DNA from: Fragilaria crotonensis
Taxonomy: Eukaryota > Bacillariophyta > Fragilariophyceae > Fragilariales > Fragilariaceae
Reading direction: 5' to 3'
DNA length: 64,000 nucleotides
NCBI GenBank assembly: GCA_022925895.1
Contig: JAKSYS010000245.1
Span: 1 to 64,000, forward strand
Position numbers and translations under genes: made by a program. This document shows positions 4,564 to 55,132 of the stretch, in pieces. The stretch's first letter is position 1. Each line of letters starts with the position of its first letter. The notes below the pieces were generated by a model. That model ran no database searches. It was not told where the DNA came from and saw only the letters and a program-made list of their open reading frames with translations.

Positions 4564-6740
4564 TCAAGCGTCGTCAGCTGTCTTCTCAAAAACTTGCGCA
4601 GCTTCCAGTGCATCTACTTCCAGGTCAAGATCCGACTCATATTCACCATAAATCATGGCATCGACAGTCTTGATAAGCTTGGGTCCTTCCCAAAGACCAG
4701 CAAGCTCATTCCGTCTCCATCCCAAAAAACACATTGTTCCGAGACACATGGGGACCAAATACAGCAAGGCTGGCTGTCCCATATTCATAAGGTACACTGC
4801 AGCATTGGCCATCAACAATCCAATCGCGTACGCCACAACGAGCGGAGCAAAGTAACCAGTGGGGCAAGGGCAACAGGAGTTTTGTTTGGGAGTCTCTCCT
4901 CGTCCACCGGCGACGCCCATAAAGTTCTTGGCGGCATCCAAGCGCGCCGCAAAGCTGAGCAACAATCCAGGCAGGACAATGTCACCGAGACCCAAAAGGC
5001 TGGCACCTCCTTGGTAATCGTCGAAACGTGGGACTGTGAGCAACATGGGGAGTGGATCGCCTCCTTGGCAGTTGGAATCATCGGGGTACTTTTCACACCA
5101 ACTCGGGTCGGCCTTTGGTGGTCCTCCGCTCGTTGCAACTGTAATCATGACAGATTCGCCCTTGAAAATGAGGGGAGTCACAAAGACGAAGAAAATATCA
5201 TAAAAGAATGCGACCATGAGGAGGATGGACGCCACTCGCATACTGTTCAGCTTTATCAAGGACAGGAACATAATACACATGCAAGCGCCCAAGATGTCCT
5301 GCGTGACCCAGAAGAAGGTATTGGTTTCTGGATGGTGGACTGTGAAGGCAACATACAGCCAAGTGGCTCCAACAGAATATGCACAGATTCCAGCCAGCAT
5401 GTCAACCACAGTTATGTCTCCAATGTCCTCCATCTTGGTTTGAATCATAACTTTATTAACAATGCGAAGTCTGCGAAAGATTTTCTCGAAAGTTGGAATG
5501 AAAATGACTTGCATGACTGCACGAGAACATCCAAACCCGTACATGACCTTGACAAAGCTATAAATCTGATGTAGCAAAGAAGGATAAGTATCCTTATCAA
5601 GCGAATAATTCAGTTGCTGCAGTGCATACATACGCTTACCTTGAAGACGAAAAGAAGCATCAAGCCCGACGACGCCATGACAATGAATCCTAAGGCATGG
5701 CCAGCGCTCAACTCGAGTGTTTCTTCGCCTTGCTGCGTGTTCGTGCGATTCTGCGGTGAGGTCAAGGCAACGCGTTCTCCGATTGATGCTCCGTTGGCGG
5801 AGAGGTTGTCGGATTCTAAACTGCGGGCTTCGGCCCGTCTCGTCATGACCGCCGTCATACTACGATAATCACTGGCGGACGAGTACGCTGCAACAGAACA
5901 GACAAAGACTCCCAGAGCCCAAATCAAGATGGAAGAAATGTTGTAGGACGCGCGGACACGTGACGACACAATAACGTAAATTTGGTTGCTGTGTAATTCC
6001 TGTTCCAGATGTTCGCCCTGTTCGAGAGTAATGTAGACGGCAGGAATGGTAACATCGTCAGCGCCGTAGTTAGGGTCGTTGTACAGCCAGACATGCAAGT
6101 CCCACGCACAGCAAGCTTCCAAGTTACCACCGGCAGTTTTGTTGCCGGTCAAGAGACAAGCTTGTGAAGTGCACATTTCGAGGCCGTCCGGAGAATTAGC
6201 GAGGCAGAGGTTACTGGCCGATGGTCCCGACAGGACAGCATCGTTCACATCTGAGTTGTAAGCAGGCGTGAGAGAAATAGCAGAGGCTGGAATCTCAGCA
6301 CGGCCCTTGGAGCAGTCAAAGTCATTGAACTGCGAAGGATAAATGACCTCATTTGTGGTTAAATTGAGAGAATAACGGCTAGCCAATGATCCACGGACAA
6401 TCAGACCAGCAGCTCCCATGCGTTGAGCATTCATCGCCTTCGTCTCGAAAGTACACTCTCCACGAGGTACCATAACAAATGTCCCGCTAACAGCTGGATC
6501 AGCGCTTGTGTCATTGCGACACAGCAGGGGATTGTTACGAGGCGCAAGTGACAAGAGATGCGCTTCGTTGTTTTCCACCCCCATTTTAGGGTAGGATCCG
6601 AATGAAGCCTGCGATGCGAAAATCGAATAAGTTCCTCCATTGCTTAGTTGAACATCCACCTGGGCGGTTTGTGTAATCGCGTGAACATAGGTGGATCCGA
6701 AGACCAACAAAAGGAGTACCCTAGCACAGAACATTGTCAT
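4564..6740 (-). CDS. Signal peptide peptidase-like aspartyl protease with PA domain (SPPL2 type)
   Basis: Two exons, 6740-5640 and 5565-4564, give 700 aa; the 74-bp intron (donor AAG|GTAAGC, acceptor CATCAG) joins in phase 0. An intron-like 23-bp alternative (CTGCAG acceptor) is unlikely. Intramembrane protease that cleaves type II membrane proteins or signal-peptide remnants, usually in ER, endosomal or vacuolar membranes. Seen in order: signal peptide (MTMFCARVLLLLVFGSTYVHA); lumenal protease-associated domain with GECTFETKAMNAQRMGAAGL; then about nine transmembrane segments. All three catalytic signatures are present: FFYDIFFVF (first Asp), LGLGDIVLPG (second Asp) and QPALLYLVP (PAL motif). 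WVTQDILG also fits the family. The PA domain plus signal peptide place it in the SPPL2 branch rather than plain SPP. No frameshift. Confidence 0.93.
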
Positions 6741-14697: not shown

Positions 14698-17296
14698 TCA
14701 ATGCTTGAACCTTTTTGACGCGTGTGAGGTCTCTTCGTCAATACAATCGGCCGCATGCTTTAGCATGTCCGCCATAGATCCCTCTTCGGTCGCCTGGATA
14801 TCTTCGGCGTCTTCAGTGTCAAGATCGAAGAACTCAGTCAATGCAGCTGCGGCTGCTACTGCTGAAGTCGATGAGCGAAGGGAATCCAGAAGGCAGGACA
14901 TGCTCATAGGGCCACTTTCGCTAGCTGACCTTATAAACTCTTTGTTAAATGCAAGGAGCGTGAGCATCTCGAATTTCGATGATCCCAAACTCTGCCGCAT
15001 GTGAGTATCGATTAGACGACAGAATGAAAATACACGCTCTTGCATCCCGTTTGCATCGGGGGCTGCAAGTTCAGGCGCAGCAATACGAGAGACCATTGTG
15101 TGATCTTTGCCGTTGAGACGATACCACATCAGAATATCAACCTTACTGGTTAAAAAAAAGCAGTCTCCTCGAGATATCTTGACCTTTTCCACATCGGAGA
15201 GTTCGGCGCGCTGATCATTTCTAAGGAAAGCATGCCAGTTAATCAACTGATTCATCCATGCATCATATGCTTCATCAGCCATTTGGGATGCAGTTTGCTG
15301 CACTGGTTCAAGAACAACAGCTTCTTCGCGAGGAATGGCATTATTTCGCAAGGCTGTTGAGAATGGATCATCACTGTCATAGTTATCATCCATCAAACTG
15401 GAATCGACGGGTTCATCTAACACAGTTGGTTTCCAAACCCGCACAGCCTCTGCATTCAGCATTCTCTTGAAAACAGCGAGAGCCTTATCAACAAGGTAAC
15501 CCTGTCCAGTTGCTCGAAGGAATGGTAGTCCTGTAGTCATCATAACTGGATCAACAACCATAGCAACTAATTGGTGGTCGTTTGGAGCCGGGAAGTAGTT
15601 CTTAATCTCATCTAGCAGACGATAACGAAGATCCTGTACGTCCTTGTGCAAGCCTTCAGTGGCAACTTTCTTCTTTGGTAGATCATCGAAGGAACAAGAC
15701 CCATCCCACTTCTTATCCTCATCTTCAGTGAACGTGATATCCACAATGTTGAAGTGAGGCTTTTCGAGGGCCATGACGCAGCTGTGAAAATGTTTAAAAG
15801 AAATTAACAACAAATTTTCGAATTGGCAAAATGAAAATGCATACGTACGTTAAAACTTGCAGCCAGCTGGATCCAGCAGTCGGTTGCGAATCAACTTGGG
15901 TCACAAACGAGAAGTTACAAACTGGGCGTAAAACTGCTTCAAACCCTGCTAGAAGCTCCCACTCCTGTTCTGTAAGCATATGAGCTCGCCCAGTAGCGGA
16001 TTCCTGATTCATATAGACATGAAGAGTGTAGAAGCTGCGTAACACTTGCTGAAACATCATCTCCGTGCCGCTGATTCGAGTGTCATTGTCGAGCCCGATT
16101 CGAATCGTTTTCATGTTAGCATTATCATTGCGAGACTTGTACTGGACTTGGCGAGACTTGGCTTTCTTGCTGAAAACGTACTTTGCGAGTTTGCGCGCCT
16201 TGACACGTAATGATTCACACGGGGGGAAGCTATCAATGATGACATGGTTCTCTGATCGTGTTCGCTTGCCGCATGCGTGGTCAGCAACAAGATTAGCCAT
16301 GTGCATATGGCAATCACCATCTTCTCCTGTAAGTCTGCGCCCCGTTGCAACAGATGCATTTGTCGTGTCATTAATGCTCATATACAGATCCGTATCTTGG
16401 ATATCGTAGCGACTTAGAATCGATCGTGCGGCAGCAGCGCAAGCATCAGCGGAATGGCCATCAGGGATGGCTAGCCCGAGTGCAACTTTATATCGTTTCC
16501 ACTTAACAGGATCAATCCAGTAGACAGAAACACCGAAGAATTGTTTAATTGTGGAGTCCCAGCCATCGTGACAAACAATAAGCCACCCAGGTGGCACATT
16601 GGAGTTGTCAGCCGAGGAATACACAGAACGAGTACATGCCAGACGTGCTTTGATTTCCGTCACAAACGATGAAAACATTGAGGCAAGGGCGGCGTCCATC
16701 TTTCCTCGGGTCATGGCCTTGTATGATCCAGGTTTTAAGTGACTTGCAAGCTCAATGATGGCAGTCAATTCAGGATCAGTGGCAAATGACAGTGGCAATC
16801 GGCGATTGACAACCAGCATAGCAATTGCAGCATGAACTTGGTTGTTGACGGCGTCGTTTCCTCTTGCTAGGAATAAGCTCATCGTCGTCATCCCCGATTC
16901 AGATTGTGAACTGTCGACTGAATTGACAACCATTGGTTTTTTGCCTTGAGCCTTGGGGATAACATTCCTGTGGTGCGTTTTAAGATGAGATTCTCCGTTT
17001 GAAGTTGATTCATTGTAGAGAGAAATCAAACACTTCTGAAAGACTCTCATGGGAGCATTGTCAACGTCAATATTGTCATAGCATATTTTACAAACATGGC
17101 CAGATTTTTCGATCGGCCCATTGGTTAGTTGGTAAACGTAATTCCAAACCCAAGAACTCTTTGCCACCTTAGTAATTGCGCGCTGCTCCGCCTTTGATAT
17201 CTCTTGCAACGGTTGTTCGTTTCGGTCCTCCTCTCCTGGCACAGTATCGCCGCCAACCCCTTCGATATCCATGATCAATACGACGACCGATGACAA
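14698..17296 (-). CDS. hAT transposase with BED-type zinc finger
   Basis: Two exons, 17296-15849 and 15781-14698, give 843 aa. The 67-bp intron (donor AC|GTACGTATG, acceptor TTTTCACAG) joins in phase. BED-like zinc finger near residues 60-110 (VCKICYDN ... SHLKTHHRN). RNase-H-like catalytic core from about residue 230: LIVCHDGWDS, a conserved WI..KRYKVALGLAI block, then LYMSINDTTNA and GEDGDCHMHMANLVADHACG, matching the hAT second Asp and the C..H feature. The C-terminal region (second exon) contains the hAT dimerisation segment; DVEKVKISRGDCFFLTSKVDILMWYR resembles its conserved WW.-type block only loosely. The frame is open throughout, so the enzyme could be functional. It cuts and reinserts the element. 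The start is the first in-frame ATG before the zinc finger region. Confidence 0.88.
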
Positions 17297-18806: not shown

Positions 18807-19197
18807 GAAAGCCGGTATTGTGAAACAGAACGAAACTAGATGTTTAATCGGACAAGGACCCTATCCCACAATGTGCTACCGGTAGATGATCTCTATTAGC
18901 CCTTCTTTGGTACTACTACTAGTCGACTAGTCTAGTACCTGGTACAATGTACCGGCAGTGAACGACTAAGCATAGACGCATGGGTGTGTGTGGCATGTGG
19001 AAGCGATGCGTTATGCTGTTATGCAGATTGGATTCTGCATTTGATAGATACTGGAGTACTGTATACTGTAGTGTTACTGCAACTACTACACCACTACAGT
19101 ACCCTTCTACTAGAGAATGTCAAAGTCGACGTGCGCCGACGATCGTGAATGCCCTCTACGTTGTCAAGATATGATGGATCCATCAATTTAAGAAGGG
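18807..19197. other. Spacer left of the MULE
   Basis: GTAC/ACTAGT-rich stretch at about 18905-18950 and around 19040-19110. No gene. No clean target-site duplication is seen against the right flank of the element: ttaagaaggg (19188-19197) versus atttacatta (26257-26266). Confidence 0.4.
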
Positions 19198-19815
19198 GGA
19201 AATTACAAAATCACGTATTTTTCAGCCACTTTTCAATATAGTACAATGACCCTCTATATACAACTTTACATCTTACTATATCACCGATTTGCTTTTGACG
19301 TTTACAATATCACGCATACATTTGTTCATATATTACTATATCACGCAAACGTGATATAGTAACACATTTTGTCGCCAGCCACATCTTCTCTCCACAGATA
19401 ACATGGTACACCGTATTGTAGCCAATGTCATAAATGAAGAATGGCCAACCTTGCACCACAACCTCTTTCTCCGTCGTTTTGTTTCAATCACTTGTACCTC
19501 TCAGTTTGATTGCGCTAATGTGGTAGTTGTTATCACTCTTGTAGTGTGGTCATTATTTGCGTTGTGCTTCTTCTGTGTTGAACGTTCAAATTCAAATTGA
19601 CCATTGTGGGCGATGCATTTGAATCAACTGAACCTGATACAGTAGTCTACGCACCTTTTGGTATACAGTACCATAATGTTCATCTGAGAAGTACATGAAC
19701 CTAAATCCAGCCCCTTGTCGTCACCCTCATCGAATGCAACATGACGCATATAGTTGTTATGCACACTTGAACTACCTGCCTATTAGAGACTATTAGAGAC
19801 TAGCTGGGGCAACTT
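19198..19815 (+). repeat. MULE left terminal inverted repeat
   Basis: Matches the reverse complement of 25637-26256 over its whole length, with a few substitutions and small indels by eye. It begins GGAAATTACAAAATCACG and ends near the stop codon of the minus-strand gene. Contains an open frame of 65 codons (19403-19600) also present in the other arm; probably incidental, but only a few codons differ between arms. Confidence 0.92.
19333..19362. repeat. Subterminal hairpin in left TIR
   Basis: Perfect 13-bp arms TTACTATATCACG / CGTGATATAGTAA around a CAAA loop. Related words (TACTATATCAC, CAATATCACG) occur just outward at about 19275-19320. The same hairpin is at 26091-26120 in the right arm. 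Candidate transposase-binding sites. Confidence 0.7.
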
Positions 19816-21874
19816 CGTTTGTCGTGGCCGGCCGCAGCCACTTCTAGGCACGGACTTTCAGATGCATGAGCACGGCCAGCGGCTACAATCTTCTCCTTTG
19901 CCGCAGTGAAAGTGCCAAATAAGTGATTTGCACCTTTCCAACCAGTTCCTACGGGCGCAGCACCTTCACCGTCTGGCCTAGACACAGATGTGCAGTGCCT
20001 CAGTGCACGGCCATCCCAGCTGATGGCAGTTGCATGAGAAAGCTTTATGGCGATGCCGTTGTAATCCGTACCACATTTCCTCTTGCCGTACAAATTTGGA
20101 ATCAGAAAGTACCAGTTTGATCCACAACCCGGCTTCTCCTCTGTCCATAGACTAAAACCCTGTGAAGCGTCATTCACATCGAAGTGTGACGCGTTTCCCA
20201 GGTCAACGCTTACATCAATTGTGTACCCAACCCGGAGGCCCTTACCATTTCCATCCATCGGAGCTATTGGCACAAGGGACGAATCGGCTTCCACGTTCTG
20301 AACAACGGAAAGGACATCCGGAAAACAGTAGAGGCCAACAGTGGCAAACGCCTCGACAAAGCTCCTCAGTAACGGTTGAGGCACCTTATTGTTTGCAGCG
20401 AACCCGACAGTTGTCATTCCATCCAACAGAACACGGGTCCCAATTGCGTGCATTGTACCAACATCCCCGGTATTCTGCCTCGCCGTGCCCACCGCTGCTT
20501 CTCTCCGAAGGCGAGAATTGTGTTCACCGATCACCTCGATGGAAGCAAGTAGGTCATGCCTGCCCATATGGCAATACCTTGACTCGTGGGAACCATCAAG
20601 AATACTCCTCACCATGATAATCGACTTCCTCCCAACTGCACCAGAACCACTGGGGGGCGATGTCGACAATGATATCAACGAATGGGTGTTCCAACGGGTC
20701 AATCGTCCAACAAGTGTCGGGGATTTTCAGGTGCAAGCACCCCGGGGCGTAATGTCGACCACCCACCCTTGCTGAATTCGAGTTGACAAGGCGGCGATTG
20801 TATTCTTGCGCACGGTCAGCAACTGGCCACGCACCCACATCGTGTCCAGCAATAATGTCTGGTGGCATCCGAGGGCCATCATGATCCGCACATTGCGTTG
20901 ACACGAACACTTCGCGCAGTAACCTTGGTGCTGCTGGATAGTACGAAACTCTCCAGGCAGAGACCCCAGCACTTGTAACGGAAGCAAACCTCTTCACGTA
21001 TCCATCCTCTCCAAATTGTAAACGGAAGTCCGACCCCCGGTGGAACCTGCACCGACATGTTCGTCCTTAGTCGAAACCAACTCATGTCGAGAGCAATGCG
21101 TGAACCTTCAACACCCTCAGTCTTCCTGCGCCAGTCCCTTGCGCAGTAGAACACTCCCGCCCCCGGCAGGAAAGCAAGGAGAGTCCTGTACTTGTAGTCA
21201 TTGGCATCGTCAAGATCCTCAGGTCCGCTTGCAGGCGCCATAATTACATCATCAGGTCCCAATGCAACAACGTCCGCGTCACCAGTTTTAAAAGCACTAC
21301 TTATATTTAAGGTCGCAGCGGCCGTCGGAGTAATCTTTCGGTTACATATCACATCCATGAGAATGAACCCCGAAAGGTACTTCGAAGTGGTGGCATGTTT
21401 CATGAAGACCTCATCCAGTGAGCGCAATTGCGTGATGGCACTGCAATTATCACTAACTTTATAACCGGCTTTCACCTGCTCCTCGTCAGCAAGCCGAAGG
21501 TCCTTGCAGATCGAACAATTAAGCGCATACGATATCCATCTTAAGGGCGTGCCGCATACCTCGACCTCGCCACCAATAGTTCCAGTCAAAGCTGCAGAAC
21601 GAAACGCAATCGTAAAATCGGAAGGGGAAAAAATATCCCTCCCATCCAGGGGGAAGCACTTCAGTAGCAGTGCCAACACTTTCGGACCTGAAGGGAAGTA
21701 ATTCCTTCTCGCCCGCTTTCGTGGCATCTTGTTACTGAGCCGCTTCCTCGAGGCGGGCACCGCCACCACCCTTGGATTATCCTTCCCGAGGTTTAGTACA
21801 GTAGTGCGACAAATCGACGTCCGACCTCGCATCTTCAACGCATCATTGTCTTCATTCCGAACCAATCCTGACAT
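19800..21874 (-). CDS. MULE-borne gene, candidate 2-oxoglutarate/Fe(II) dioxygenase-like protein; two frameshifts
   Basis: Three overlapping minus-strand frames (21874 to about 21040; about 21036 to 20655; about 20652 to 19800) read as one protein of roughly 690 aa if two frame changes are accepted. Both fall at homopolymers: C5 at 21036-21040 and G6 at 20652-20657. The N-terminus is basic (NKMPRKRARRNYFPSG). The middle has Cys-containing segments (LNCSICKDLRL). The C-terminal part contains NASHFDVNDASQGFSLW, then about 40 residues later AIKLSHATAISWDGRALRHC. The HxD ... H spacing, with preceding strand-like segments and WDGR.LRHCTS, looks like a double-stranded beta-helix dioxygenase core. 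This is pattern recognition, not a confirmed family. It could act on nucleic acid or protein during transposition. Divergent from the transposase. Alternative: an unrelated captured host gene. Confidence 0.55.
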
Positions 21875-22540
21875 ACTACCGTGAACTCCCAGCTAGATGG
21901 CAGGCAGAGACAGCGTATCGTCAGTCAGCAGCACAACAAACACGCCCGGCTAGATGGCAGGGAACTGATGATGTGCTTCCAAGCGGATCGAATAAATGAT
22001 GAGCAACGAGCGTCCATGCGCGTCGTCCGTAAGCAGCGCAACAAACACCCCGGCTAGATGGCAAATGATGATGCGCTCCTCAACAACAGACGCAATGCTG
22101 ATCAGCAAGAAGTCAATGTGTGAGAGGCAGCGAAGTGTGATCAAGGAAATGCATTTTCGCGCAATTTTGCATTTGGTTGACACCCTGATGTACTGGCGTA
22201 CACGTATGTATGCATACGTGGTGTAGTATGACGTTGTCATTGCGCGCGTGCAAGACGTCAAAAATTCATACATGCCACAGTTCATTAAGTGTCTATTCTT
22301 GCGCGCAAGAATAGACACTTAGGAGTATCTGAACAGATTTGTACCATACCGGTAGTAATACAACAGCAATGCGGTTTCCAATATACAGTAAAGTATTTCA
22401 TAAGGATGCAGTGCCGTTTATAACAGTTTATAAGGAGTGATGCCAATGTAGTACAAATACAGCATAGCTACTACTTCTTCATCGTCTTCTCAAAGCATTG
22501 TTTCCTTTGTCGTCAAATACTGATCAGAACACGATAAACC
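21875..22540. promoter_or_regulatory. Divergent promoter region of the MULE with direct repeats
   Basis: Lies between the two start codons. Holds copies of GCTAGATGGCA near 21892, 21949 and 22052; the last two sit in a longer direct repeat of about 40 bp (about 21919-21958 and 22024-22063, with CAACAAACAC inside). A perfect palindrome lies at 22286-22321. These are likely control sites for both genes. Confidence 0.6.
22286..22321. repeat. Perfect 36-bp palindrome
   Basis: Each half is 18 bases (TAAGTGTCTATTCTTGCG), meeting at GCGCGC with no loop. It lies about 220 bp upstream of the transposase start. Could be a dimeric binding site, a cruciform, or a terminator between the diverging transcripts. 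Confidence 0.85.
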
Positions 22541-25500
22541 ATGGCAAAGAAGGCAAAGAAATGCTTTCCAGGCGATCCCCGCTTTTCGGGATGGATATCT
22601 CCAAGTAGCGAGGATATTTCTGCACTACCGCGTAATGCTTGGTTGAGCACGTTGCTGTTGGACTGCATACTGCAGCGATCTGCGCCGCCGGTGGATGTGA
22701 CATCCACTGACACTTTTCATATTGGGAGTCTTGGCACCCGAACTTACATCCAGTCATGTAACGATCTGATCACGTATGTACCCAATGGACCCGACGCGGT
22801 TCAAGTGGGAGGGCAAACCGACGAAAAGTTTCACGCATTCGTGCATCTTTGCAATCTTGTTTCCGATCCCGTCCCGTCAGCAGGCTCCTTATACCGATTG
22901 TCTTGGTACACCACTTTTTTGTGCTTTGCTTGGATTGTTCGTTCTCTAGTCGAGAATTTATTACCAATTTGACAATTTACGATTCCCTGCAACGCCGCAC
23001 TCGTCAAATTAATCCCGACGTCGCAACCATCGTAAAGGAAGTCAACTACTTCGTGCGGTTCTACATTCTTCAAGAGGAGGAACATGAGCACCTTCGACTG
23101 ACGGATGAGGCCTTGCTTAAACGAGTGGAGTATGGAGAATGTCCACGTCAGTTGAACGGATTTGATTGCGGTTTATTTGCAGTTGGCATCGTTTTGCACC
23201 TTGTCGAGGGTAAGGTGATCACGATGGAAACGTTTACTCAACAAGACATCACCGGTTTGCGGGCTAAACTGACGGCCGTGTTTGGGGGAGAGGGCACCGG
23301 ATTAGGGACGACAAGTCAGGTTGTCCGCGCCTGCTTCCCAAAACTGAATGGAAGTAGCATCCTTGATACTTTTGGTGTGGAGGTACTGGACGTGCCTGCC
23401 GCGGAAGTACACCAAGTCAGGTCGGCGGGCGGCAGTTCGATTACGGAGGAGGTGGAAACTGCTGTGAACAAGGAAAACACGATGGATACTGCTGGCCATT
23501 CGGGAAGTGACGAAGACATGGAAACCGCTGTGGAAAAGTGCGCATCACTACTTGCTGCTACTGACGATGATTCGGCGAATGGCAACGAGGATGCGCTTAG
23601 TTATCACACTTGCGAGGACAGCGAGAGCAGTAGTGAGCTTAAGGATGATAATGTTACAGATTTTCGAACAGGAAATGAAGGGAGCAATCTGGCAAAGCCA
23701 GTGCCCGTCAACAAGTCTCCTGACGTATTGTTCTATGACATAATGAGGGACGCGAAGGTGGATTGCTTTGCGACGTTGGAAGAGGTGATGCCATTAATTG
23801 AAACGTATGAGATTCGGTCAGGAAATCACTTGCGGGTGCAACGCTCACTCCGAAATCAATTTAAGCAGTTCCAATGTCGGGAGCATGTCAACTGTCCATT
23901 CCAAATTTTAATATCGAGGCGGCGATCTGACGGCAGGTTTGGCGTGTCGAAGATTAAGGGTTTGCATGGCGACGTGCGACGAGCTCCGCTCGCGGCTGAT
24001 GGGCGGCATTGGAAGAAGCGACATCCGAACCTGCATGGAATTATTGGTCAGGTGGTTCAAACAAAGGAAGGAACACCGACACCGGCAGACGTTCAGAAGA
24101 CGGCTGCGACACGTTCTGGTCTGATTGTGCCGTACATGACTGCGTACCGAGCACTGACCCATGAAACAAGCGCTCAAAAGGCTGCAACGTTGAAAAACTT
24201 CGAGATGATTATCCCTTTTTTGGAAGCGTTGAAGAGCTGTAACCCTGATTCCATTATTGGATGCGAGAGGGATAAGGACATGAGGGTCGTTGAGCTGCAT
24301 GTTTTCCCCGGGATCATGAACCGAGCGCTGAAGTTTGTGCGCCCGGTACTGTCTTTGGATGCCGCCCACCTGAAGAGTGTGTTCAAAGGCACTCTGTACG
24401 TTGCATCAGTTCTGACGGGTAGCAATGATATCTTCCCAATTGGATTCATGATCTCGGCAGGCAATGAGGATGGTGCTTCGTGGCGAAAGATGCTTCGTTA
24501 TCTGAAGAAAGCGTGCCCAATCATTGGAGAGCAGGTGTACGGAAATGTTGACGTGGATGGGGTCGCGAGGCCCCCATTTCTGTTCATTTCTGACCGAGAC
24601 AAGGGTCTGAAACCGGCGTTGAAAGCAGTGTTCCCTGATAAATTTGAGATGAGCTGCGCAAAACACATCGAGGGCAACGTGGCGCAGAAGTTTGGCAAGC
24701 AGTGTTCCAAATATGTATTGGCAATTGCAAAAACATTTTCGACAAGAAATTCTAGTCGCTTATTTGAAGAGGTACGCAGGATTAAGCCGGAAGCTGCAAC
24801 ATACCTGGATGAAATCACAGACAAGGATCGTGTTCTGTGGCGGACCACTCAGTGGTACTCATCTTCTACCGCCGTTGTCATTCCACCAAGGTATGGAATT
24901 GTGACGTCAAACACAAGTGAGGCAGTGAACAATATGTTCTCTGAAGCTAGAGACCTGGGGTGGTTAGAGTGTGTGAACAAACTCATCGACATCATGTCGA
25001 CAAGGATATACGTGTGCAGAAAGAAGTACAGTGAACGTGAGGGGTCCGAAGTGGTGCCTAGAGTTGCGCAGATAATGAAGGTTAGGTGGGATGCAGCTGC
25101 TAGCATGACGGTTGTCGAGTTGGAAAGTGGATGCGGTGACTTTAAGGTCGTAGAACCATCATCACTTGCGGAGGATGACCTTGCTGAGAATACAGTACGA
25201 TCGTCAGCAGGATACCTGGACCAAAACCGCATCAACATAGTAAAGCCAGACCTTCAATGGTGCAGCTGCGGTGTCTGGCAAGACTTCTTGTACCCCTGTC
25301 GACATGCGTGTGCAGTCTTCAGGAAATGGAAAGAAAAAGACTTCACCTATGTCATCGGCAATTTGGTGCATCCCTACTACAGTTTCGAGTTTGTACAAAA
25401 CACGTTCAGGAGCAACGTCTTCCCCGTCTGCTTGGAAACACTCGAATATGATGGCGTGACGAAGGAACCAGCATTGCCAAAGCGACAGGCGGGACGCCCG

Positions 25501-25665
25501 AAGACAAAACGAATTCGCAGACGAAGTAAATTTGTCGAATTGAAGCAGTCGCCTGTAACATGTTCCATCTGTGGGAAAAGGGGTCACAACCGACGAAGTT
25601 GTGTTCCGTCTGTGCAGAAAGGTGCCAAGTCCAACGAAATTGCCCCAGTCTCTAATAGTGTCTAA
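22541..25665 (+). CDS. Ulp1-like protease / MULE transposase fusion
   Basis: Exon 1 (22541-22773) joins exon 2 (22884 or 22881 to 25665) across an intron with donor GTATGT; both acceptors keep phase, giving about 1004 aa. N-terminal third: C48/Ulp1-type SUMO-protease-like domain, with His near residue 88 (VLVHHFFVL), Asp near 111 (LTIYDSL) and QLNGFDCGLFAVG carrying the Cys near 173. An acidic Ser-rich linker follows. Then a WRKY-GCM1/FAR1-like DNA-binding segment (FKQFQCREHVNCPFQI). The MULE DDE core has LSLDAAHLK (about 569), FISDRDKGL (about 647) and TSNTSEAVNNMF (about 755). A SWIM zinc finger (WCSCGVWQDFLYPCRHAC) and a CCHC knuckle (CSICGKRGHNRRSC) end the protein. All catalytic residues are visible and the frame is open, so it may be active. 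The stop lies inside the right TIR. Confidence 0.92.
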
Positions 25666-26256
25666 AAGATAATAGGTAATGACAATTTTAGTGTGCGTAA
25701 CAACTATATGCGTCATGTTGCATTCGATGAGGGTGACGACAAGGGGCTGGATTTAGGTTCATGTACTTCTCAGATGAACATTATGGTACTGTATACCAAA
25801 GGTGCGACTACTGTATCAGGTTCAGTTGATTCAAATGCATCGCCCACAATGGTCAATTTGAATTTGAACGTTCAACACAGAAGAAGCACAACGCAAATAA
25901 TGACCACACTACAAGAGTGATAACAACTACCACATTAGCGCAATCAAACTGAGAGGTACAAGAGATTGAAACAAAATGACAGAGAAAGAGGTTGTGGTGC
26001 AAGGTTGGCCATTCTTCATTTATGACATTGGCTACAATACGGTGTACCATGTTATCTGTGGAGAGAAGATGTGGCTGGCGACAAAATGTGTTACTATATC
26101 ACGTTTGCGTGATATAGTAATATATGAACAAATGTATGCGTGATATTGTAAACGTCAAAAGCAAATCGGTGATATAGTAAGATGTAAAGTTGTATATAGA
26201 GGGTCATTGTACTATATTGAAAAGTGGCTGAAAAATACGTGATTTTGTAATTTCCA
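25637..26256 (-). repeat. MULE right terminal inverted repeat
   Basis: Reverse-complement partner of 19198-19815. The last codons and stop of the transposase (about 25637-25665) lie within it, so the repeat reaches into coding sequence. Confidence 0.92.
26091..26120. repeat. Subterminal hairpin in right TIR
   Basis: Mirror copy of 19333-19362, arms intact and loop TTTG. Confidence 0.7.
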
Positions 26257-26458
26257 TTTACATTATAAGGGCGGTAAACGAGATTTTCGTCAAACCAAAC
26301 CGGGGTCAGTTCTGACACGAAAAATGGTCCTCGATTAGGAGGGCCTGAGAAAGTTATCACCAGCGATAGTCGGACAATTCCACAACTTCCAACACACGGA
26401 AACCCGCACAGATTTACGACCGGTTCCTTGGCACATCCGTTTCAGCTCCTGTTTTACC

Positions 26459-27374
26459 ATGCCCCCGAGTATCCACCTGACACAGCTATCACCTGCACCT
26501 GCGAAAGAGGCTAGGAGGAAAGCGTCGACGACAAGTCGAGGAAAAGATCGAGAGAAGCAGCGAGAGCATCACGAAACAACAGCTCCGTCGCCTCCAAATC
26601 CCACGCCGCTCGCCGCGACGGATGGTGCCATCTTCCCCATTACCAACTCATCTTCTTTGTACGGCGGCGCTGGTATGTATGGTGGGGGTATGTACGGAGG
26701 TGGATTGTATGGTGGAGGTATGTACGGTGTTTCACCATTTGGAGGAGGAATGCCCCCACCTGGTCCCTTGTCTGGTCTGAATCAGTTTCTATTTGGGGTA
26801 CAGAACGTGGTGTTTTCGTTAGGACAAGCAGTGCAGGTAAGTTAAGCATAGTTCCTCAAGGAGAGAGACTTTGACGCTAACGTCATCCTTCATTCAGATT
26901 ATCGGGATGAATACGCAGGCAATACAGCATCTCCGGAGACAGCCTCGGCTATGTTGGACCACGCTCTGAAAACGTATACTGAGATGCGAAGGCTGGATGC
27001 GAGTAGAAACGAATCAGAATCTGAAGACAAAAAAGAAAAGACGAAGATTGCGAGCTTTGAGGTGGATGATAGTCACGGTTGTCACCTATGCGGGATTCCG
27101 AGTAGTGAAATTAGCCTTGCAAAGGCGTAGACCGAAATCGACCCAATTCAATGGGATGGTTCGCACTATGGCACTCCCCCATCCTTGTCCTATGGAGGCC
27201 TCCATGCGCAGTCGAGCTGGGACATATGATTGCCAAGTGCTGCTCCTACTGGTAGTGGTTACGATACATAGGAAGCAAAGTTACAGCGTTTTCGAAGCCG
27301 TAAAAAGAACGCAAATTCCTGTACCCTTCGGCGTTTCGAAGACTTCCATAGTCCTTAATTCGCCTTTTCGTTAG
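26459..27374 (+). CDS. PEX13: PEX13-like peroxisomal docking protein, frameshifted as assembled
   Basis: Exon 1 (26459-26836) encodes a Pro/Ser-rich head and then a Gly-Tyr repeat (GMYGGGMYGGGLYGGGMYG) and SGLNQFLFGVQNVVFSLGQ, the order seen in the N-terminus of PEX13. A 61-bp intron (26837-26897) is followed by IIGMNTQAIQ, then a frame change near 26925-26932 into LDHALKTYTEMRRLD. Another change falls at the A6 run 27029-27034 into RRLRALRWMIVTVVTYAGFRVVKLAL, a membrane span. Peroxins of this type dock import receptors at the peroxisomal membrane. The C-terminal part is Gly-rich in more than one frame and its exact end is unclear; the SH3 domain found in animal and yeast PEX13 is not seen. 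Assignment rests on the repeat head and the membrane-adjacent block. Confidence 0.58.
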
Positions 27375-27392
27375 AGGAAGGACTCGTTCGCT

Positions 27393-27874
27393 TCAATGAC
27401 AGGGACAATGAGAGCCTCTCTTTGCCGCCTTCAGTTTCGTTGCCTTCGAGAGAGCATTAGAGTCGTAGCGTCGAAGAACGTCGGCAACACCGCCGTTCTG
27501 CTTGATGAGCTTGGAAATGAGTTCCAAAACTCCCGGACGAAAGCGCTCTATACCTCCTTGAACATCATCACCTGTCATGAAGGTATCTTGTCAGCAGGAG
27601 AAGACGAGCATTTTCTAGCAAAGTGCGAAGCCATCTTCATGACTTACTGGAAACTCGAAGTGGCCCGTGACCGTTCTTGCCCTTGGAAGCTTCCGCCGTA
27701 ATCAATTTGAAGAATTCTGGAGTGAACTCAATGTTCTCGCTAACAAACTCCCTCAGCTCGGCGTAAGAATGAGGCCAACGAGGGAGGCAAACTCGTTTTG
27801 GATTTCACCCATTCCTCACCAGTTGAGTATTCTGGTAGTTCGCGCTTGCTTTCGCCCGCTGCCTTCCATGTCAT
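27393..27874 (-). CDS. Small spliced coding segments, separate gene or 3' end of the USP gene
   Basis: Minus-strand frames MTWKAAGESKRELPEYSTGEEW (from 27874), LREFVSENIEFTPEFFKLITAEASK and DDVQGGIERFRPGVLELISKLIKQNGG can be joined by GT..AG introns. The second intron is clear: donor GTAAGTCATG at 27647, acceptor ATGACAG before 27571, in phase. The first, about 52 bp, is weaker. The stop is at 27393. The segment starts only 19 bp past the USP stop codon, so it may be the real C-terminus of that protein reached by an unseen splice or indel. No family recognised. Confidence 0.35.
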
Positions 27875-27892
27875 GCGGCGTGACTGAGTTGG

Positions 27893-29220
27893 CTACGGTG
27901 AATGTCGAGGAAGTAGCAACGGAGCCGCAGTCGCCGACAATGCCGGGGCTTCCATGGTAGACGACGTTGCAAACGTCGCCACCTCGGCCTGTTTGGCACG
28001 AAGGTCCTGTGCCACGGGGTGATCTACCACACGGTAAAAGAGCATGTAGGCTTCAGCGTTCAAGACTTCTTGCGAAGTGGCACGCGACACGCGAGCATCA
28101 TCCATTTTCCACCATTCGTTCTTGCTAATGTTCCTCACGTAGGCGACGTAGTGGCCAGAATGCGAGTTTTTGCCCGAATGCACGACGACAGCAAAGAGGC
28201 GACAGAACATGTTCTTAACCTTCCCCGACAGCTGCTCTGTCAGGAACGGTTTAAGATCAAAGATCTCGAGGAATTTGATGTGTCCTTCAATTTTGGCAGA
28301 CCCCGAGGCACCTAGTAGTTGCGACACTTCGCGACCTCGACGAGCCGGAGGGGGTAGAGGCTTGCCGTCGGATCCGTAGCGGAATCGTTTGAGGTGAAGA
28401 GTCAGGATAGGGGGTATCGAGGCCAAGCGGGACTGTTTAGTCGCCCGACCCATCTTGCCGCATCGGTCGCACTTGTATTCTGCAAGCGGTTCCACCTTGG
28501 TGAATCGTTGGAAGGCGGAGCTCAGGTCAGAAAGGGCTGACCCAGACGTATGCGTCACTTCCAAGCCAATATCTTCGATGGGATCGATGGTTGAATTCAT
28601 CGCATGGCAGGAATCGCAACAGACGTTGGACTCGACTGTTCCTCGGAACAATTTAAAGGGATAGAGCTTCTCGTTCTCCGGATTGTCATGAACTGACCCA
28701 TGCCCAGTTGCCTTCGAGGCCAACGCCGACGATTTTTGCATGGCCTCGATGAGGATTCGGAGAAACTCATGCGAGTCTTCTTGGACGCCAAGTTTGAACC
28801 ATGGTGGAGCCACTTGTTCAACGAAGCCATTGACAAAGACCTCCGGGGCGACGGGGTCACCGGATCTCGATCTCGCATGGACCTCAGTAATGTGATCTTC
28901 GAACTCACAAAGGGTGCAAAACTCCATATCCACCGAATCATCCGAGTCTGTGCATGGACTCTTTTTACCAGACCGCCTTGACTTTCGTGTTGATCGCTTT
29001 CTGGAGGGCCCTTCGCAGGACGGACCAGGCGAGGTTCTTCGCCGTTCTTCGTTCCCTCGAGCGATGGGACATGTGAGTTGATGAGGTTCATAATCGATTG
29101 CAAGACAAAGTTCCGGGGCATGAGCCAGCGCCTGAAGGACGGCATTCATGTAACAAGTGTTTCCAAGGTTGGCAACGCCAGAGGCGACCCGCGCTGTTGG
29201 GATGGCGGCAATTCTGGCAT
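27893..29220 (-). CDS. Ubiquitin-specific protease (USP/C19 family), 5' end unresolved
   Basis: Deubiquitinase that removes ubiquitin from proteins. The Cys box VANLGNTCYMNAVLQALAH is read just upstream of the first ATG at 29149, so that ATG cannot be the start; an upstream exon is needed, since an in-frame stop lies beyond about 29230. Further family blocks: FVEQVAPPWFKLGVQEDSHE (USP helix region), two zinc-binding CxxC pairs (VCCDSCHAMN and YKCDRCGKMG), PPILTLHLKRFRYG and the His box NSHSGHYVAYV followed by WWKMDDARVS. The N-terminal insert between the Cys box and the middle is basic and Ser-rich. It resembles the USP36/USP42 side of the family by layout only. Frame intact from the Cys box to the stop at 27893. 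Confidence 0.87.
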
Positions 29221-50553: not shown

Positions 50554-52853
50554 TTAGCAAGCTCCGGAAGTTGAGGAAACGAAATCATCACGCAGCAACC
50601 TGCGCATAACCTTATTGGATGCAGTTCGAGGAAGTTGAGAGATAATCACAACTTCACATATTCCGAACAGTGGATTCAAGTTCACCTTGATGGAATCTTT
50701 CATGGCGGCTTTGAGAGCGGTGACAGACGTCGTGTCCACATCACTCACACATAATACTGCATAAACCACCAATTTAGACGGACCGCCGTTGGGACCGCTC
50801 ACAGCAATCGCGGCTGTCTCTTGTACGCCCGGCACAAGATTGCAAACTCGTTCGATCTCCAAGTTGCTGACTTTGATTCCTCCAATGTTCATAGTGTCGT
50901 CGCAACGACCGAGAGCGCGAAAGTAGGGCGTACAGCATAATCCTGCATTATCGCCATCATCGCTGACTTGATGCTGCGAGTTACGAACCATTTGAATTTC
51001 ATCACCGTGACGCCGAAGGACTTCGCCATTAGGACCACTTGGCATCCCCAAAAAGTAAGTGTCAAAGTGATTACGATTCAATAAGTGAGTGCTAAGGCCC
51101 AGGGCTGGTGGAACCAAGGCAACTTCTCCGGTGATGAAATCGTGAGTTCCTGTGGTTGGCTTTGCAGTATAGGCTGACCTGTCATCTGGTGGACTGGATG
51201 ATTCGGCGTCCAACAGAAGAATCTGAGACCCCAGAACAGGTGTTGAAAACATGGAAGGCACATTGGGCTGCACCAACGTGGACGAGAGGAATGAGCCTCC
51301 AATCTCGGTACCACCGCAATATTCCACCACAGGAGCATACCGGGGACGCGCGACACGAGCCACAGGTAATTCTCAGGGTCACTGGCTTCTCCCGTGGAAC
51401 TAAATCGTCGTACACAGCTCCAGTCACACTGATCAGTTGCGTTCTTGGCTTGCCATGCCTTGACAAGTGATGGAATCACACCCACCATCGACATTTTGGA
51501 TTCTTCAACGAACTGGCAGAAGGCGTCCGTGGATGTGACACCATTAAAGATACCGATGGTTGCACCGTTAATCATTTGAAAAAGCAACCAAGGTCCCATC
51601 ATCCAACCAATGTTGGTCGGCCAGGCCACACGATCTCCCACCTGGATATCTTGATGAAAGTATCCGTCAATCGCGCCTTTAATTGGTGTGCTGTGAGACC
51701 ACGCAATGGCCTTGGGCTCGCCAGTTGTTCCACTGGAAAACAAGATATTACACGGATCCATACTATCGCGCTTGACACTTTCGAAGGAATCACTGCAACG
51801 GTGCAAAAAATCATGCCATGCCCAATCCATCGAGGGGCGCAGCGCAATTGACCCATGGAGAGGAACTGGTTTGCCTTCGGGGTCACAATCGTTCCACGTA
51901 CCACTCTCGCTGCGTTCCATCGTTTGAACGCGTGGATAAGGGCCGGCATGCAGCAAACCTGGGACTACAACAATTCGAACGGGTTCAAAGTCCTGTTCGG
52001 ACTTGGTTTCCTTGGACTCATCCACGTCATGACACTGAACCGACAGCAGCGCGAGAGCTTCCAAAACACGTGAGTAAAGGGGTAGGAATTTAGACCCACG
52101 GTAGATTACATCTTGTGTAAAGACAGCCTTGGCGTTCCCCAATCGACACCGCGTGGCGATCTCGGTGGCCGAGAAGGAATCGGCAATCGAAACCACAACA
52201 CACCCGGATTTGACTATACCGAGATAGATAGCAATCGATTCTGGAGTCATGGGCATACAAATTGCGATGGCATCGCCGGGGCTCAATGCGAGTTTTGTGT
52301 GAATTGCATCCGCAATTTGATTCGATAGACGGTTTAGCACACCAAACGTCATGGTCTGGAGCTCTCTTGGATGTGATTCTATTGCGTACACTAGCGCAGG
52401 ATCGTTTGCGTCGCGTTTGTGGAAGCAGGAATCACTAATATTCAGTCGTCCCTCAGGAAAGTAGCTCGCGTGAGCCGCTGACGCATTGCATGAAGAAAAA
52501 GTGCTGGTTGGTTGTGTATCCCACACAATATCCAATAAGTTCATGCTTTCCATCCAAAAATCATCTCGATAAAGAATTGACCATTGGTAGAGTTGTTCAT
52601 AGGACGTAAACCCTTTTTGATCCATCATTTTGTAAATGTTCGTTTTGGTGATATCGGATGGAATCCAACAAGGCTTGACGTCTTTCACATTCTGGTAGAC
52701 CAACGCATAACACTGCTTGTGCACTTCATAAGGAGTTGACGGAGTAAGAAGTTCACGGTGAAGGACGGCCCAGACTTGCGAAGGTGCAGCCCCATGTCCA
52801 GCCTTTGTACGAGCCTGATGCACTAGCTCTACTGCTGCGTCCATGCCCGACAT
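50554..52853 (-). CDS. Acyl-activating (AMP-forming CoA ligase) enzyme, AAE17/18-like; one frameshift
   Basis: ANL-superfamily enzyme that adenylates a carboxylate and transfers it to CoA. The start is taken at MSGMDAAVELV (52853); the longer frame to 52910 is unlikely. Family blocks: phosphate loop ILFSSGTTGEPKAI, WPTNIGWMMGPWLLF, VRRFSSTGEASDPENY, VVEYCGGTEIGG, RCDDTMNIGGIKVSNLEIE (hinge and A8) and the catalytic Lys block LPRTASNKVMRRLL. WIPSDITKTNIYKMMDQKGF near the N-terminus resembles plant AAE17/AAE18, peroxisomal acyl activators; the substrate is not known. The frame changes at about 51345-51365 (GTGTCGCGCGTC) between LWLVSRV and RPRYAPVVEY. No clear peroxisomal SKL: the end is SGAC. 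Confidence 0.84.
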
Positions 52854-53378: not shown

Positions 53379-55132
53379 TCAATAAGCATCGTACCTCCGA
53401 TCGACGTTACGATCGTCAAGATCGAGGATACCAGAAATTGACTGGTTGTGAAGGGCCCTCGCAATGGCCTCGGCCAGCAGCGGAGCGACATTGAGCAGCT
53501 TTACCTTGGAAGGAAGCTTGCGCTTGAAGCCAACCGTGTTAGAGATGAGCAGGTATTCCAATGCGTCCAACTCCTGGAGTTTCTCCATAGTGTTGTTGTC
53601 GGGAGTGACAAATACGCCGTGAGTCGCCCATGCGTAGATTGATTCCGCACCGGAATCATGCAGCTTTTGAATGCTGGCGATCATTGTCGTCCCCGTGTTC
53701 ACAATATCATCCACCAAGATGCATTTTCGCCCTTGGACATTACCAACCAACAAGGCATCGTAACTAGTCTGGGCCTGCGTCTGGCGAGATTTCGACAAAC
53801 ACGCGATCTCAATCTCGGTTCCTGATAGTCGCTGCAGTACGGAACGAAAGTGAGCCGCACGAGCGACTTGACCTTCGTGGGCTGCGACGATAGTGACCTT
53901 TGGATACTGACCATCCTTTTCTTGATCTTGCATTGCGCTGAGCTCCTCGTGAAAGTACGCAGCAGCAACAGGGCCTGGCATTAGGTGCTGCAGTTGCGTA
54001 GTATTAGTAATGGTGGGCATGATTTTGTGAAATGGTGATAGGCCTCAAAGAAAGAAAGACAGCGTTGCATTTGCGACACGACGATGGGACTCACCTCAAT
54101 CGGGATCTTGGGCGGAAAGAAGCCAACCAGGGTATCAGAATGCAAATCCATGCACATCACTCGATCCACCCCCATTTCCTCCAACATGAGTGCGACATCC
54201 GCCGCTGCAATCGGTTCACGGACTTTGCGGCGGTCTTGGCGACTGTATCCATAGTACGGGATTACAGCCGTAATAGTTTTGGCACTGGCTCTTCGCATTG
54301 TGGAAACAAGCAATAAAAGCTCCATAAGAGAGTCAGACGATGCCGTGGTATTGATCACATATGCGTGCTTGCCTCGGACAGAATCCCCCAGCTGAACCTG
54401 TGTCTCTCCATCGGCGAATTGTCCAACTTGGAGACGATTGAGATCGAGCCCTAAGAGATGCGCAACGTCGCTTCCCAACTCCATGCTCATGTTCCCTGCA
54501 AAGAGTGCGAACCTTTCGGCCATTTTAGATTGAATTTGAGGAGATCGGTAAAAGTACATGCGACGCGTTGTGACCATGGTGTTTTCGTCGCTCGCCTCGG
54601 GAGCGGACGAGGCCACTACCTTCTCAGGATGCGTCGACGCCGCCAACATTGATTGCTCCTCCAGTTCAATTTGTTTCTTTTCACGTTGCAACGCCTCGAT
54701 AGCCTCAGGTTCAAGAGAATCCAAGCAACTCTCGAGCGCACGGACGCTTTGTCGAAAGGCAGAACTCTCGCCCTCGTCAGATCGATTTGTCTTCGGTTGG
54801 ATGGTTTGAATATACATATCTTCCAGAGTTGCTTCGTTCATCTCTGCAAGCATCATTGCGTCGCTGGTACTTCCAAAGTTCGGCAATTCCTTGTCACATC
54901 GCGTTGTTGTACAATTGAACGCGACAATTCCTGTGAGACCGACGATACATGCCGGGATCCAGAAATTGTACATGTCGTGATCTGATGATGCCACTGTGGT
55001 GTGACTCGATAGCGCTTGTGTTCTCGCAGCCAGGGGAGACCGAACCACCTGATTACGCACTCGTCCAACAACATGTTGATGATTGCCTAACATCCGTTGC
55101 GACAGCCGGCTGACAACATTGGACGACGACAT
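53379..55132 (-). CDS. PRPS: Ribose-phosphate pyrophosphokinase (PRPP synthetase) with long N-terminal extension
   Basis: Exons 55132-54095 and 53987-53379 give 548 aa; the 107-bp intron (GAG|GTGAGT, CTGCAG|CAC) keeps phase. It makes PRPP from ribose 5-phosphate and ATP for nucleotide, His and Trp synthesis. Core motifs: [38 protein letters not shown] and the PRPP-binding loop [14 protein letters not shown]. The core begins near residue 210. Before it lie a basic, Ser/Arg-rich N-terminus ([20 protein letters not shown]), one hydrophobic span ([16 protein letters not shown]) and an acidic Gln/Glu linker. This looks like an organelle-targeting leader plus membrane anchor, possibly mitochondrial; it lacks the F-type plastid motif. 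The frame is undamaged. Confidence 0.93.

Follow-up and report, generated by a model that had tools for sequence, protein, structure and literature searches.

The stretch of DNA analyzed in this study, hereafter the window, comprises the first 64,000 nucleotides of contig JAKSYS010000245.1 of the diatom Fragilaria crotonensis (GenBank assembly GCA_022925895.1) and harbors a Mutator-like element (MULE) bounded by long terminal inverted repeats (TIRs; Table 1). Between the TIRs lie two divergent genes: one encodes a protease of the Ulp1/SENP type in the same protein as a MULE transposase, and the other encodes an enzyme whose catalytic domain, as modeled from an intact relative, has a predicted TET/JBP fold. 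We think it rather probable that this is a recently inserted, mutated copy of an autonomous MULE family whose relatives carry both the fusion and the divergent TET/JBP-fold enzyme, and that both enzymes probably act to counter silencing.

Table 1. Position of the element, its repeats and its genes in the window, with the basis of each assignment.
Feature	Position	Strand	Basis
Whole MULE element	19196..26255	unassigned (.)	inverted repeats; copies with 9-bp duplications
Left TIR (450 + 111 nt blocks; true start 19196)	19198..19767	+	inverted repeats; copies
TET/JBP-like gene (predicted), three frames here	19800..21874	-	open reading frames; intact L016 relative; fold, residues
Intergenic stretch, presumed shared promoter region	21875..22540	unassigned (.)	position only
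Ulp1-transposase fusion gene, frameshifted here within 22774-22883	22541..25665	+	open reading frames; copies
Peptidase_C48 (Ulp1/SENP-type) match	22885..23271	+	Pfam E 7.8e-8; SENP1 profile match; fold
MULE transposase domain	24346..24669	+	Pfam E 3.4e-7
SWIM zinc finger	25252..25326	+	Pfam E 5.1e-6
Zinc-knuckle-like motif C-x2-C-x4-H-x4-C	25561..25602	+	pattern by eye
Right TIR	25690..26255	-	inverted repeats

The element and its copies

The outer arms of the element (19198-19647 and 25806-26255) are 99% complementary over 450 nt and are followed inward by a second inverted block (19657-19767 and 25690-25800; 111 nt, 99%). The TIRs thus measure approximately 570 bp and not the 620 bp given in the initial annotation, which had been made from the sequence alone, and they are long, as is a feature of MULE membership. 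Since other copies end in GGGG...CCCC, the true start has to be placed at 19196, two bases outward, and the right end of the window copy lacks the final CC. Its target duplication is not intact, only four of the nine bases being in agreement.

A search with the first 303 bases of the element in its own 62.1-Mb assembly yielded at least 40 matches, 40 of the 74 candidates having been scored, and 15 stretches from this search (L001-L015) were compared. Five of them are near full-length copies (L001-L005), L006 is a deleted copy, L007 is cut by the end of a contig, L008 is degraded, and L012 and L013 are two members of a sister family. Target duplications were scored with the cut or degraded L005, L007, and L008 set aside: the 9-bp duplication is perfect (9/9) in L001, L002, L006, L009, L010, L012, L013, and a larger element on contig C2 (see below), agrees at 8/9 positions in L004 and L011, and is out of register in L003. 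Mapping of copies, ends and target duplications, as had been proposed in the initial annotation, recovers near-identical copies, mostly with 9-bp duplications. L001 and L002 have both flanks in common and are therefore two views of a single insertion. On its right side the window copy is flanked by 2.1 kb (26208-28280) that share 98.3% identity with the flank of L005 (contig C28; L046), so that these two copies probably occupy the same locus on two haplotypes or lie in a duplicated stretch. In its own sequence the window copy is nearer to L001 (99.5%) than to L005 (97.6%), even though its flank matches that of L005.

The same search returned elements whose likeness to the window copy is confined to the outer 148 bp of the TIR. 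Three of them (L009, L010, and L011) are approximately 1.07 kb long, have 9-bp duplications and were probably mobilized in trans. The element on C2 (24624-36478; L014 and L015 are its two ends; see also L047 and L048) is an 11.9-kb stretch bounded on either side by this 148-bp TIR end, with the perfect 9-bp duplication TTTTTTAAA, and encloses unrelated open reading frames (ORFs). One of these (L047:2245-3891) has a terminal motif that is Ulp1-like by eye and gave no Pfam match at E 0.01. The CpG ratio is 0.90-1.01 in L001, L003-L005, L012, L013, and L016 and 0.95 in the flanks of the window copy; it is lower in L008 (0.84), L017 (0.71), L020 (0.68), and L023 (0.74) but not in L018 (0.94) and L019 (1.02), and because these values are too mixed they were not used as evidence.

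The protease-transposase fusion

When positions 22774-22883 are left out, the fusion protein of the window copy matches Peptidase_C48, MULE, SWIM (E-values in Table 1) and Transposase_mut (E 2.5e-5), all over the Pfam cut-offs, and hence both transposase domains that mark MULE membership, MULE and Transposase_mut; DBD_Tnp_Mut (E 0.088) stayed under its cut-off. Nearly equal values were obtained for the 1041-aa protein of L003, which needs no intron. The protease segment recognized in the initial annotation is thus indeed matched by the C48 profile. Its description of a MULE transposase with a SWIM domain and a zinc knuckle holds for the former two domains, whereas the knuckle is a pattern seen by eye, for which no Pfam profile match was found in the window fusion protein.

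The stretch 22774-22883 had been regarded as an intron, an interpretation that we reject. The frame of L003 runs uninterrupted through its equivalent, the sister family (L013 and L016) has homologous residues across it, with only two nucleotide differences between L016 and L013 over 52 codons, and the window copy and L006 are here one base shorter than L003. It therefore represents coding sequence with a frameshift in the window copy, which encodes 143 aa from the ATG of the gene (22541-22972) and then goes out of frame; within the main frame, the first ATG (23224) comes only after all four catalytic residues of the protease. Among the window copy and seven aligned copies, the whole fusion frame is present in L003 alone; some of the one-base differences between copies may be assembly errors.

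The occurrence of protease and transposase in one protein is true for the family as a whole, as all seven aligned fusion proteins (L003, L013, and L016-L020, picked for their long open frames; L017 and L020 aligned from their first ATG and missing an N-terminal part) carry the protease in frame. The His, Asp, Gln, and Cys noted earlier in the window copy correspond to H125, D148, Q204, and C210 (L003 numbering), which are invariant in 7/7 rows and align with the H, D, Q, and C of SENP1 in the family profile. Every one of the 16 PDB sequences that this profile matched at E up to 1 is a SENP or Ulp protease. The best fold partners of the predicted protease model are SENP5, SENP7, SENP2, and Ulp1: Foldseek returned three matches under 1e-3, namely SENP2, SENP5, and SENP1, and VIA-align gave Z 10.2 for SENP5 (root-mean-square deviation, rmsd, 3.8; 164 residues aligned), 9.7 for Ulp1 (3.8; 163) and 8.8 for a NEDD8 protease (4.4; 159). 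For the C48 core, the ratio of nonsynonymous to synonymous substitution rates (dN/dS) ranges from 0.11 to 0.19 across five pairs, values similar to those of the transposase part; conservation within the fusion protein is lowest in the linker. In the best C48 pair (L016-L013) the ratio is 0.14 at dS 0.07; dS is high in most pairs and saturated in many, and the values of 1.16 (residues 1-110) and 3.57 (linker) for the near-identical L018-L019 were obtained at dS 0.01-0.02 and are taken as noise. The protease looks functional in the family.

The TET-like second gene and its pairing with transposases

The divergent gene postulated in the initial annotation, where no function was assigned to it, is real, and whole in L016 (799 aa), but in the window copy it is split over three frames (21874-20879, 20868-20596, and 20615-19800), the last of which contains the HxD...H catalytic part. 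L002 has an open frame of 696 codons. In total, 23 relatives were gathered from the genome. Residues 1-680 of the L016 protein were modeled (predicted local distance difference test, pLDDT, 77.7; predicted template modeling score 0.85), and in a Foldseek comparison with the PDB the first 17 rows are CMD1, TET2, and CcTet (best E 1.4e-7), followed by ALKBH3. Likewise, rows 1-16 of VIA-align are TET2, CcTet, NgTET1, and CMD1, with Z 15.7-11.2 and 242-306 aligned residues: TET2 reaches Z 15.7 (rmsd 5.2; 306 aligned), CcTet 14.7 (3.9; 254), NgTET1 13.9 (4.6; 245), and CMD1 13.3 (9.1; 287) and 13.2 (4.6; 282), and beyond the TET family ALKBH3, FTO, and PHD2 follow with Z 9.8 and less. The catalytic domain is therefore predicted to have the TET/JBP fold, with the Chlamydomonas enzyme CMD1 among its best matches.

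In the catalytic alignment (22 rows, i.e., the 23 relatives minus L038; the near-identical pairs L025/L041 and L033/L034 are included, so that there are fewer independent sequences) H548, D550, D553, R607, R610, H611, and K645 are invariant. The HxD...H iron site of TET/JBP dioxygenases (H548, D550, and H611) is thus present in all rows; H598, considered as the second iron-binding His, was rejected, as it occurs in 20/22 rows. In CMD1, H345, D347, and H397 bind iron, D350, the equivalent of D234 in NgTET1 and Asn1387 in TET2, contacts N4 of 5-methylcytosine (5mC), and W358 occupies the place of an Arg that holds 2-oxoglutarate (PMC7854593). H345, D347, D350, and W358 are spaced as H548, D550, D553 (H+5; 22/22 rows), and W561 (H+13; 21/22 rows) of the enzyme studied here, a likeness in spacing only. 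The one usable pair gave a dN/dS of 0.10 for the catalytic part; like the protease, this enzyme thus shows constraint.

Relatives of the TET-like gene are abundant in the genome, with at least 124 matches that merge to at least 112 places, although only 118 of 353 candidates were scored. Four transposase groups were considered: that of this MULE, group A (next to L022), group B (next to L021), and a second MULE/SWIM group (next to L023), for which 44 of 319, 57 of 511, 76 of 505, and 59 of 70 candidates were scored, respectively. Because only the best candidates were scored, all counts of places are lower bounds; the pairing distance of 6 kb and the merging gaps are our own choice. Group A resembles the Pfam family Plavaka (PF18759; E 3.1e-4 and 20.5 bits, under the cut-off of 26.3), group B is similar to group A (BLASTP E 6e-20), and the second MULE matches the MULE profile at E 0.003-0.005, under the cut-off, and shows no significant BLASTP similarity to the transposase of this MULE. 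Of the 112 TET-like places, 70 have a listed transposase no more than 6 kb away, a zone that covers at most 3.9% of the genome, and 69 of these 70 have the orientation typical of their group: divergent for this MULE (18/18), convergent for group A (29/30), group B (13/13), and the second MULE (9/9). In copies with known ends the TET-like gene lies inside the TIRs.

In a tree of 24 rows, labeled by this pairing (nine rows, L024 among them, have no label), the TET-like genes of this MULE cluster in a single clade (100/100), with the genes of group B next to it (joint support 91/91). Genes linked to group A, and likewise those linked to the second MULE, are found on either side of the deepest split. 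We read this distribution as an exchange of the TET-like gene between transposon lineages with a single acquisition by this MULE, the direction being presumed. From outside the genome no relative was confirmed, either in viral contigs (11 pattern matches with the TET-like alignment and 99 with the transposase alignment) or in bacterial and archaeal genomes (24 pattern matches with the 22-row catalytic alignment).

Some further features were observed in or near the second gene. The TET-like ORF at L022:918-4640 (1240 aa) has approximately 500 extra residues of unassigned nature after the TET-like domain. Between the two divergent genes of the window copy a perfect palindrome of 34 nt (22287-22320) was noticed by eye. 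TET-like places without a partner, e.g., C34:84372-84785 and C393:40903-41295, are further carriers or lone genes.

Possible functions and known relatives

In the reading that we favor, the transposase would, by homology, bind the TIRs and move the element, and the TET-like enzyme, made from the divergent gene, would modify 5mC on transposon DNA such that methylation by the host no longer silences it. The protease, brought along by the transposase, would act on that transposase or on proteins of silencing or repair and strip them of the small ubiquitin-like modifier (SUMO) or a related one. The host is photosynthetic (61 PF00504 matches) and possesses genes for C5-methyltransferases (13 PF00145 matches).

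Several results weigh against this reading. Both genes are broken in the window copy, so that this copy is not the self-contained unit described in the initial annotation; it is probably dead, and any further movement would have to occur in trans. As a whole, the predicted model of the protease is weak (pLDDT 59.9). For the second gene, the assignment to TET comes from a predicted model and from the spacing of residues and has no link by sequence profile: five relatives gave no Pfam match over cut-off, and searches of PDB sequences with three alignments and one single domain returned no TET protein. PF12851 (Tet_JBP) matched neither these five proteins nor the genome, although its silence in the genome is uninformative since all 14 control genomes were silent as well. 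Furthermore, no Arg or Lys is conserved between H611 and K645 in the 22 rows, unlike in TET2 and NgTET1, where an Arg after the second His (R1896 and R289, respectively) holds the C5-carboxylate of 2-oxoglutarate, a residue not so used in CMD1 (PMC7854593). Because of this absence and the matching spacing of D553 and W561, a CMD1-like cofactor site is possible on sequence grounds; the invariant R607, R610, and K645 might also serve as 2-oxoglutarate binders.

The second gene could then encode another Fe(II)/2-oxoglutarate dioxygenase, AlkB-, FTO-, or prolyl-hydroxylase-like and without action on 5mC, as the fold is common across the superfamily and ALKBH3, FTO, and PHD2 also match the model (Z 9.3-9.8). 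However, these are weaker fits than the 16 best VIA-align entries, which are all of the TET family, and D553 occurs, in every row, where D350 of CMD1 contacts 5mC. We therefore consider such an identity quite unlikely. It also seems unlikely, if slightly less so, that the TET-like genes form a host gene family, or are passengers that happen to lie near transposons and are useless to them. In favor of this view, and against our own reading, no member of the four transposase groups was listed within 6 kb of 42 of the 112 TET-like places, and a TET-like gene is missing within that distance from 18 of the 36 places of this MULE group, four of these (C318, C330, C540, and C93) being near the end of a contig; unpaired TET-like places may have an unlisted transposase, since the transposase searches scored only part of the candidates. 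Neither a host family nor a passenger, however, is easily reconciled with an orientation that is fixed per transposase group, with the small fraction of the genome that lies so close to a transposase, or with the position of the gene between the TIRs.

A more serious competitor, to which we would give somewhat less than an even chance, concerns the protease, which may serve transposition and have no role in silencing, either taking SUMO off repair factors or the transposase or cutting the fusion protein in cis. Protease and transposase form one chain, and group members without the TET-like gene (L017-L020) still keep the protease in frame. On the other side, no cleavage site was seen in the fusion, although none was searched for, and SENP-type folds are known to cut ubiquitin-like proteins. 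A role of Ulp1 domains in transposition or repair has been proposed for Ginger and MULEs (PMC2836005).

Ulp1 domains have previously been reported in the transposases of Mutator and Ginger1 elements (PMC2836005), and ULP sequences in plant MULEs and CACTAs (PMC2528002), so that the novelty of the present element lies in its TET-like second gene. Mutator elements with Ulp1 are known from Arabidopsis (Kaonashi), melon, rice, grapevine, hydra, and lancelet (PMC2836005; PMC2528002), and likewise combine a MULE transposase and Ulp1 in one element, in some cases with Ulp1 described as belonging to the transposase. Kaonashi lacks TIRs, and its ULP runs in the direction opposite to mudrA (PMC2528002), neither of which applies here, where the TIRs are long and the protease lies on the same strand and in the same frame. 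In the grapevine element ULP is downstream of the transposase ORF (PMC2528002), whereas it is N-terminal and in the same frame here, and going by the descriptions consulted, the TET-like gene sets the element apart from Kaonashi and the other MULEs with Ulp1. Ginger1 also has a DDE transposase and Ulp1 in one protein, but its transposase is similar to Gypsy integrases and its Ulp1 is C-terminal (PMC2836005). MULE-Diatoms (group 37 of a survey of MULEs; PMC6446971) is likewise an algal MULE with SWIM; unlike the element studied here it has one ORF, TIRs of 123-124 bp and no target duplication, and the main text of that survey, as far as available, contains no word starting with "ULP" or "protease."

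TET/JBP genes have been described in 2025 from ten lineages of fungal transposons, which include Plavaka but not Mutator, together with a proposal of an anti-silencing role (PMC12730594). As in F. crotonensis, a gene of the TET family occurs there on several unrelated transposon lineages of one genome. The fungal PE-type TETs have HxE where HxD is found here in 22/22 rows, and the hosts are fungi and not a photosynthetic alga (PMC12730594). CMD1 is presented as a Chlamydomonas enzyme and not as a transposon component (PMC7854593). The Ectocarpus transposon paper mentions JBP only in its reference list, in the parts examined (PMC12477816), and papers on methylation and Chlamydomonas name, in the portions consulted, no such element (PMC12344493; PMC8226300). 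In the literature searched, which did not extend to Repbase reports, we came across no TET-like gene carried by a MULE or by a transposon of an alga; priority is thus not established.

If our reading is true, transposon-borne TET-like enzymes are not specific to fungi, since they are abundant in an alga and occur also in Mutator elements, here beside a deSUMOylase that is fused to the transposase. Whether mobile elements use a DNA-modifying enzyme of their own against methylation-based silencing would become directly testable, and the genome would provide more than 100 naturally occurring variants in an enzyme family that has been sampled only thinly, perhaps with relatives of CMD1, which uses vitamin C, among them. 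A bolder version, which we regard as improbable, is that the enzyme is of the CMD1 kind and uses ascorbate in place of 2-oxoglutarate. Methylation would then not be removed; the transposon would mark its own DNA with glyceryl-methylcytosine, or with something similarly bulky, and thereby hide 5mC from the readers of the host, while the SUMO protease tethered by the transposase would strip SUMO from silencing complexes at that site. Two coupled enzymes of one element would act together, and the TET-like module would have been passed among at least four transposon groups of this alga.

In the surroundings of the element, an ORF of 492 aa in the window (15794-17272; minus strand) resembles by eye a fragment of a zinc-finger/hAT-type transposase and gave no Pfam match at E 0.01. 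Host genes near the element, all on the minus strand, are those for a signal peptide peptidase (4564-5631), a ubiquitin hydrolase (27893-29149), an AMP-binding enzyme (51078-52853), and the N-terminus of a ribose-phosphate pyrophosphokinase (53981-55132).

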